Assembly (NCBI GenBank): GCA_018263435.1
Contig: JAANXD010000087.1
Location: 1-41,554, forward strand
DNA length: 41,554 nucleotides
Reading direction: 5' to 3'
DNA from: Candidatus Scalindua arabica
GTDB lineage: Bacteria > Planctomycetota > Brocadiia > Brocadiales > Scalinduaceae
The notes under the pieces are model-generated. The model ran no database searches, was not told where the DNA came from, and worked only from the letters and a program-made list of their open reading frames with translations. Of this stretch, positions 29,404-33,552 are shown one piece after another. The position numbers were made by a program, and so were the translations under genes. The first letter of the stretch is position 1; each line of letters opens with the position of its first letter.

Positions 29404-29635
29404 TCTATGTATTACGCAAGGTATACTCTGTTTTGCACATACCGAAACTGCTGCAAAAAATGCAACAACTCACTTTTTTATCACATCTTCTGAGTAATAA
29501 TTGAAAAAAATTCCTCTAAAATCAACAATTCTCTTATCTTCTGTAACTCATGGAATGAAATGTCTTTGCGACTATAAATGTTGTACACAAAACCTCACAA
29601 CATACAACATTTTGTATATTTTGCGGGAAATGTAC

Positions 29636-29663
29636 TTGACATTTTATCCACAATCTGTATATT
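29636..29663 (+). promoter_or_regulatory. Promoter upstream of the glycyl-radical-like gene
   Basis: TTGACA (29636-29641) and TATATT (29658-29663) with a 16-bp spacer. A near-inverted pair, TACACAAAA (about 29584-29592) and TTTTGTATA (about 29610-29618), lies just before the -35 box and could be a regulator site. The leader from this promoter to the GTG start is about 175 nt long. The upstream part (29404-29635) shows nothing else. Confidence 0.65.
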
Positions 29664-29792: not shown

Positions 29793-29844
29793 GTGGTTTA
29801 ACGTTATATTTCTTTATTTTTTCTATTTGAAGGAGGAGAATATA

Positions 29845-30288
29845 GTGACAGTATTATTAAAGGAGAGCGCCAGTACTACAGAAAGTGTTGAAAAGAGCTT
29901 AACAATCTTTGCAGAGGCTGTAGAGCTGTCTTCAGACCTCGAGATAATCGGTACAGCACTTCCTAATGGCGAAGAGGTTTTCGTGATTAGAGACTACAGT
30001 AAGACCGAAGGTATTGAAGGTGCTTACGTTGAAGTGTCAATCGATGAAATCGTCCAGAAAGTTACAGATACAGACAAAGCTCAAGAATTTATAAATGTAA
30101 TTCAAAATGTAAGAAAACCTATAGTCCTGGAAGGGATTACGAGGATTGTAGGATATTATTCCAGAATGAGCAACTGGAATAAGAGTAAGGTAGGGGAGTT
30201 GAGAGACAGGCACAGTAAGAATTATGCGCTTGGAGGTCAGTCACCCGTATTCGAAGAAGATAGAGACACATATGTTAACAATTTATAA
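29845..30288 (+). CDS. Stand-alone protein with class III ribonucleotide reductase (NrdD)-like C-terminal glycyl-radical-type motif
   Basis: The 147-residue product starts at GTG (29845) after GAAGGAGGAGAA. Residues 1-90 form an acidic alpha/beta region that I do not recognise. Residues 96-125 (EGITRIVGYYSRMSNWNKSK) follow the pattern at the C-terminus of Thermotoga/archaeal-type NrdD, 'E..TRv.GYyRPv.nWN.GK..Ef.dR', where the glycine of RxxGY (here G103) carries the radical. The zinc-binding cysteines that precede this in NrdD are absent; the protein has no cysteine at all. It is monocistronic, with its own promoter and a very strong terminator. It could be a spare radical domain like GrcA/YfiD, a regulator, or a remnant under selection. 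The family resemblance is from memory. Confidence 0.6.
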   Translation: MTVLLKESASTTESVEKSLTIFAEAVELSSDLEIIGTALPNGEEVFVIRDYSKTEGIEGAYVEVSIDEIVQKVTDTDKAQEFINVIQNVRKPIVLEGITRIVGYYSRMSNWNKSKVGELRDRHSKNYALGGQSPVFEEDRDTYVNNL

Positions 30289-30307
30289 AAATAAAGATGG
30301 CTTTTAG

Positions 30308-30344
30308 AGGCTTATAAGGTGTACAACCTTATAAGCCTTTTTTT
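30308..30344 (+). terminator. Strong intrinsic terminator
   Basis: AGGCTTATAAGGT and ACCTTATAAGCCT form a perfect 13-bp stem with a GTACA loop, followed by TTTTTTT. It closes the single-gene transcript of the glycyl-radical-like gene. Confidence 0.92.
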
Positions 30345-33200: not shown

Positions 33201-33257
33201 TTATTTTAGATTTAAGAAATCCTCTGGAGTCAAATCAATGTCCTTTCGTTTAGACAT
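33201..33257 (-). other. 18-codon ORF coupled to the nucleotidyltransferase
   Basis: MSKRKDIDLTPEDFLNLK-stop starts 5 bases before the end of the nucleotidyltransferase gene, where a HEPN (HepT) toxin gene would be expected to start. It may be the truncated 5' end of a former partner; the frame carries on past stops into the coiled-coil relict. Confidence 0.35.
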
Positions 33258-33552
33258 AGACAATATTCCTCTTTATATCATCAGCAATCTCTTTGATTCT
33301 GATATTATCAATGCCTTCTTGTGTCAAGACATCTACCTTTGTGTTAAAAAGACTTTCTAAATATTCAACAAGCTCTATAAATTTCAACCCTATTGGTTTT
33401 CTCAGTTTAACTACTATATCTATATCACTGTCTTCTCTTTCGGTTTCTTTTGCAACAGAGCCGAAAATGCCTATTTTTTCAACTCCAAATTCATGCGAAA
33501 GATAGGGATATTTCTCTTTAATTAATTCCAGCGTTGGATTGTGCGGCATCAT
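33250..33552 (-). CDS. MntA-like minimal nucleotidyltransferase (putative antitoxin)
   Basis: The 100-residue protein has the pol-beta-like nucleotidyltransferase signature with G31-S32 in 'GIFGSVAKETERE', D43 and D45 in 'DSDIDIVV', and a third acidic residue D74 in 'KVDVLTQ'. The catalytic set is complete. In MntA-HepT modules this type of enzyme AMPylates and silences a HEPN ribonuclease. Here the HEPN gene is missing downstream and only short relicts remain. The start could be either of two adjacent ATGs (33552/33549). It lies 38 bp downstream of the DUF2442 gene. Confidence 0.85.
   Translation of the reverse strand: MMPHNPTLELIKEKYPYLSHEFGVEKIGIFGSVAKETEREDSDIDIVVKLRKPIGLKFIELVEYLESLFNTKVDVLTQEGIDNIRIKEIADDIKRNIVYV

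Follow-up and report, generated by a model that had tools for sequence, protein, structure and literature searches.

YfiD of E. coli and Y06I of phage T4 are autonomous glycyl radical cofactors of pyruvate formate-lyase (PFL), and the authors of the YfiD study speculated that proteins of this kind may also assist further glycyl radical enzymes (PMC8683613). In the class III ribonucleotide reductases (RNRs) described in the literature consulted here, the radical glycine lies on the NrdD chain itself, as G621 in Thermotoga maritima (PMC4493059) and G711 in Prevotella copri (PMC11226230). In some RNRs, what was once a single gene now yields two or more polypeptides; examples are the class II RNR of Pseudomonas aeruginosa, which is split (PMC4520616), and split phage nrdD genes (PMC3653736). 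In the open-licence literature searched, we came across no account of a class III RNR whose glycine is carried by a separate chain, of a split class III RNR or of a glycine-less NrdD.

The window analyzed here, a stretch of 41,554 nucleotides from Candidatus Scalindua arabica (contig JAANXD010000087.1), encodes a stand-alone protein of 147 residues. This protein likely bears the radical for a class III RNR that consists of two polypeptides. Like GrcA/YfiD and Y06I, this protein is small and free-standing, has an N-terminal region of its own followed by a C-terminal glycyl-radical loop, is also carried by phages, and would act on a large enzyme in trans. By analogy, YfiD together with PFL is its nearest working precedent. 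In contrast to GrcA/YfiD, however, the loop is of the NrdD type rather than the PFL/Gly_radical type, the glycine of the proposed partner itself was lost during evolution, and NrdR-type boxes are located at the gene. The N-terminal domain is predicted to be folded, whereas that of YfiD was described as disordered (PMC8683613). The likeness to class III NrdD is twofold: the loop of the small protein is the NrdD loop, and the partner NrdD comes with the ATP-cone, barrel, CCR finger-loop motif, zinc ribbon, NrdG, and NrdR. Unlike in the T. maritima and P. copri enzymes, the radical glycine appears to reside on the other polypeptide. While the known split RNRs reflect gene splits or intron/intein interruptions, the radical loop here is joined to an N-terminal domain of its own and is encoded at a distant locus under a separate promoter.

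Table 1 Features of the stand-alone glycyl-radical gene in the window.
Feature	Position	Strand	Basis
NrdR-like box 1 (ACTATAAATGTTGTAC), putative	29571..29586	+	Best-scoring 31-bp pair in the window; kept in homologous promoters
NrdR-like box 2 (ATACAACATTTTGTAT), 31 bp from box 1, putative	29602..29617	+	
Promoter TTGACA-16-TATATT	29636..29663	+	11 of 12 consensus bases; kept in relatives
Ribosome-binding site AGGAGG	29831..29836	+	Position common to most relatives
Stand-alone glycyl-radical protein, 147 aa, GTG start	29845..30288	+	Profile matches; homologues in 17 of 17 Scalindua-family genomes
N-terminal domain, residues 1-90, proposed docking domain (role inferred)	29845..30114	+	Predicted fold
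Glycyl-radical hairpin ITRIVGYYSR, residues 98-107; Gly103 codon 30151-30153	30136..30165	+	PF13597 match; invariant R100/G103; predicted hairpin
Helix after the loop, residues 108-123, MSNWNKSKVGELRDRH	30166..30213	+	Model; NWN.SK invariant
Intrinsic terminator, 15 pairs, then T run	30306..30340	+	

The protein is cysteine-free, and its motif EGITRIVGYYSRMSNWNKSK spans residues 96-115. An earlier note on this DNA had described this reading frame with a consensus promoter of its own, and both were confirmed; the terminator that it placed behind the gene is also present, with the longer stem listed in Table 1 in place of the 13 bp given there. The assignment as a stand-alone NrdD-type glycyl-radical domain likewise stood. 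Pfam PF13597 (NRDD) matches with E = 4.6e-5 and aligns residues 95-123 with profile positions 533-560 of 562, and TIGR02487 matches at its last positions with E = 4.5e-4; neither match reaches the cut-offs set for whole proteins, and a fragment is not expected to. The lack of a profile match, or of conservation of Arg100 and Gly103, had been named beforehand as refuting the assignment; the profiles do match, and both residues proved invariant in 90 homologues, together with Val102, Tyr104, Asn110, Trp111, Asn112, Ser114, and Lys115. The protein accordingly carries the R-x-x-G-Y radical loop of NrdD, with Arg100, Gly103, and Tyr104 invariant. The catalytic barrel, the active-site cysteines, and the zinc site are absent, as only the last 28 profile positions match and the chain has no cysteine. 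PF01228 (Gly_radical, the PFL type) did not match, and a Pfam scan up to E = 10 returned only NRDD and a chance hit to Dor1. A sequence search of the PDB gave nothing useful, NCBIfam has no model for the stand-alone form, and PHROGs has no family for the protein.

Since the profile match is short and under the Pfam whole-protein cut-off, one might take the motif for a chance resemblance or the gene for a fragment of a broken nrdD. The motif is, however, invariant in the 90 homologues, and many distinct homologues occur in bacteria and phages, which contradicts chance; the protein's own N-terminal domain, its own promoter with a conserved layout, and its conservation contradict a fragment. The probability that we leave to either explanation is practically negligible.

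A structure model built with 90 diverse sequences has a mean pLDDT of 83, and the 10-residue blocks between residues 11 and 90 reach 90-95. The N-terminal domain is predicted to fold as a helix, three strands, and two helices. Behind it, residues 98-101 pair with residues 104-107 as a hairpin with Gly103 in the turn, and a helix comes next. Foldseek searches with two models found nothing at E ≤ 0.001, and the N-terminal domain has no match in the PDB at that threshold. Elsewhere in the window, on the minus strand at 33250-33552, a 100-aa ORF looks by eye like a minimal nucleotidyltransferase (GSVAKETEREDSDIDIVV). Minimal nucleotidyltransferases occur in two-gene MNT/HEPN modules.

The search for nrdD and nrdG in the same genome, which the earlier note had suggested, located both on another contig. 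The one NrdD detected in the genome (L001:847-3243) is preceded directly by nrdR, identified by TIGR00244, and followed by nrdG2; the stand-alone gene is unlinked to it. This NrdD matches TIGR02487 with 370 bits and retains the beta-A cysteine, the CCR motif, and all four zinc cysteines. It has no radical glycine on its own chain: the tail reads SIKRNATQNRINNW and the loop is lost. Its NRDD match ends at position 538 because the tail has CDASNLYSIKRNATQNRINNWDMTK in place of YGISRIVGYFSRINNWNKSK, and the radical loop is destroyed, with RIVGYY changed to RNATQN. Since the genome's NrdD lacks its own glycine, the 147-residue protein is best read as a radical subunit and is probably not a spare part here. 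NrdD is very probably the partner because the two loci share NrdR-type boxes and no PFL-like enzyme was detected in the genome. Such an enzyme (PF02901) is encoded in 8 of the 62 genomes of the order; as the present genome has no match, we dismissed it as a partner. The genome also encodes a class II RNR (L268); its class III enzyme may therefore be dispensable, and we do not claim essentiality there. Just 3′ of nrdG, at L001:4076-4318, lies an 80-aa lysine/alanine-rich ORF resembling histone H1.

The glycine-less NrdDs are under strong purifying selection, with a core dN/dS of 0.016-0.08 among glycine-less pairs (unsaturated pairs only). Of the 42 NrdDs that lack an intact RIVGY/RVVGY loop, the two RxDGY tails among them, every one retains the zinc-site cysteines and the CCR motif, and 41 retain the beta-A cysteine; the remaining row has a gap there. 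No class I or II RNR was detected in any of the 16 genomes of family f41 (three more than 90% complete, the others less) or in G001, G003, G007, G009, G019, and G021, all at least 93% complete; NrdD itself was not found in the G003 draft. These results bear on the explanation that the glycine-less NrdD is inactive or has another job and that the stand-alone protein is unrelated to ribonucleotide reduction. While the class II RNR of the present genome and the lack of linkage between the two genes would fit such a view, we regard it as quite unlikely, since selection is strong, active-site residues are kept, other species with a glycine-less NrdD have no detected class I or II enzyme, NrdR-type boxes lie at both genes, and the radical loop of the small protein is invariant. 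It is extremely unlikely that the glycine-less NrdD draws on another radical source, such as another residue of its tail, with the small protein serving as a regulator or decoy. Some tails, as in f4, do have cysteines near the old glycine position, but the tails vary by lineage with no common residue there, and the small protein has preserved precisely those residues that make up a functional glycyl-radical loop.

In the Scalindua family (f1), the stand-alone protein is present in 17 of 17 genomes, and the R-x-x-G-Y loop is absent from all 14 readable NrdD tails. Two other families of Brocadiales show further replacements: f4 has a cysteine at the glycine position of NrdD, and eight f2 tails reach this position, with Ser, Asn, or Asp in six of them and a glycine still present, within RxDGY, in two. 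Beyond the order, the family alignment, searched against 392 planctomycete genomes, picked up shorter forms of about 105-140 aa with the same C-terminal motif in families f41, f100, f72, f88, f51, and f47, where the readable NrdD tails are glycine-less and scrambled. In planctomycete genomes without the stand-alone protein, the NrdD tails are mostly intact. Over 62 scored NrdDs, 37 glycine-less ones occur with the stand-alone protein and three without, and the glycine-bearing ones divide into 10 with and 12 without (Fisher p = 7e-5, a value that ignores shared ancestry). The NrdD tree has six state changes on the best topology, two of them forced by well-supported branches; a phylogeny-corrected independent-pairs test is powerless because the independent losses, and hence the pairs, are too few.

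Several observations weigh against reading the protein as a radical subunit. Independent losses are few, the present genome has a class II RNR, two f2 NrdDs keep the glycine in RxDGY, and three glycine-less NrdDs come from genomes with no detected stand-alone gene: G017 (96% complete), G018 (77%), and G126 (73%). G017 also lacks the gene that adjoins the stand-alone gene in two relatives, which suggests an assembly gap. In G102, G296, and G348 (L226:517-2872, L225:848-3134, and L221:1-1063), an nrdD of another type ends after the zinc site; the glycyl-radical motif is found in a short ORF of its own, directly after this gene and before nrdG. This arrangement is apparently a split in cis.

The Brocadiaceae-like family f5 differs in usually having the stand-alone protein alongside an intact NrdD; G065 and G374 likewise combine the two. 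Among the f5 tails read, G042 (100% complete; L069) is the exception, with RIGDYF, in which Asp replaces Gly and the remaining loop is intact, apparently a fresh loss. The coexistence in f5, G065, and G374, and the precedent of YfiD (PMC8683613), are what one would expect of a GrcA-like spare part that repairs an NrdD whose glycyl-radical loop was cut by oxygen, the role proposed in the earlier note. Such a role is unlikely here, since the NrdD of this genome and of the whole Scalindua family has no radical glycine to damage. Of that proposal, NrdD as the partner is retained, and the repair role fits only relatives with an intact NrdD, such as f5. It may well be the ancestral role of the protein and its role in f5.

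In front of the promoter of the Brocadiales stand-alone genes lie two NrdR-like boxes of 16 bp in a 31-bp register; a few copies, chiefly second copies in f5, are without a good pair. With 16-bp boxes, this register leaves a spacer of 15 bp, as in known NrdR sites (PMC12051234) and within the 15-16 bp expected for box pairs of the NrdR regulon; of 26 spacings compared, 31 bp is the best for the box pair. Pair scores average 24.8 over 22 selected regions, compared with 18.7 (sd 0.23) in shuffled sequence. The window's own pair scores 23 of 32, a value that, taken by itself, chance could produce in 41 kb (null maxima 21-23). The pair pattern matches three places in the whole 2.69-Mb genome, namely the stand-alone gene, the nrdRDG operon, and a site on contig C15, and the reversed control matches none; as the pattern was written from sites in this genome, the first two matches are not independent. 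The case for the boxes rests on the 31-bp register kept across relatives and on the whole-genome rarity of the pattern, which occurs in one other place. The stand-alone genes of f41 show the same spacing preference, and the viral copies from IMG/VR (L132-L190) are without the boxes. From these sequence patterns, we infer that NrdR may bind at the pairs.

The third site, at L267:5189-5231 on contig C15, combines a tandem NrdR-type pair with the promoter sequence CTTGACA. An ORF resembling an antiporter lies about 650 bp downstream, and the locus shows no evident RNR gene. The second stand-alone copies in some f5 genomes (L022:1405-1854, L101:1173-1550, and L108:951-1376) are without an NrdR-type box pair. 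The second copy of G034 resembles viral copies such as L178 and may be of phage origin.

Under the radical-subunit reading, NrdD would supply the catalytic barrel, the active-site cysteines, the ATP-cone, and the zinc ribbon, and the 147-residue protein would dock on it via its N-terminal domain, so that the RIVGYY hairpin comes to occupy the site of the missing loop. NrdG would generate the glycyl radical on Gly103, from which it would be passed to a cysteine of NrdD to begin turnover, and catalysis would then run as it does in class III enzymes generally. Repression by NrdR probably extends to both loci, the nrdRDG operon and the stand-alone gene.

Phages also carry the gene. Sixty IMG/VR contigs matched, 59 of them encoding the short protein and one a full NrdD; several contigs hold identical or near-identical copies of the stand-alone gene. 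The closest viral copy is 71% identical to the 147-residue protein, and in the two contigs examined, portal genes (E = 1e-52 and 2e-63) lie within a few kilobases of the gene. INPHARED phages gave no match. The phage-borne radical subunit may serve to drive the host NrdD. Taken as a whole, we are inclined to favor, with some reserve, a two-subunit class III RNR whose catalytic chain has lost its radical site and depends on a separate, NrdR-regulated radical subunit. This state would have evolved on more than one occasion within Planctomycetota, perhaps out of a precursor resembling a spare part, and phages would exploit it with box-free copies of the subunit that drive the host NrdD during infection.

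If this is correct, a radical subunit acting in trans would be a new RNR architecture and would represent a natural step from spare-part repair to an obligate subunit. It would also offer a handle on the loading and protection of a free glycyl-radical protein, and the viral copies would be a phage-carried dNTP-supply gene. For these anammox bacteria, the finding corrects the annotation, as their NrdD looks defective unless the separate gene is counted.
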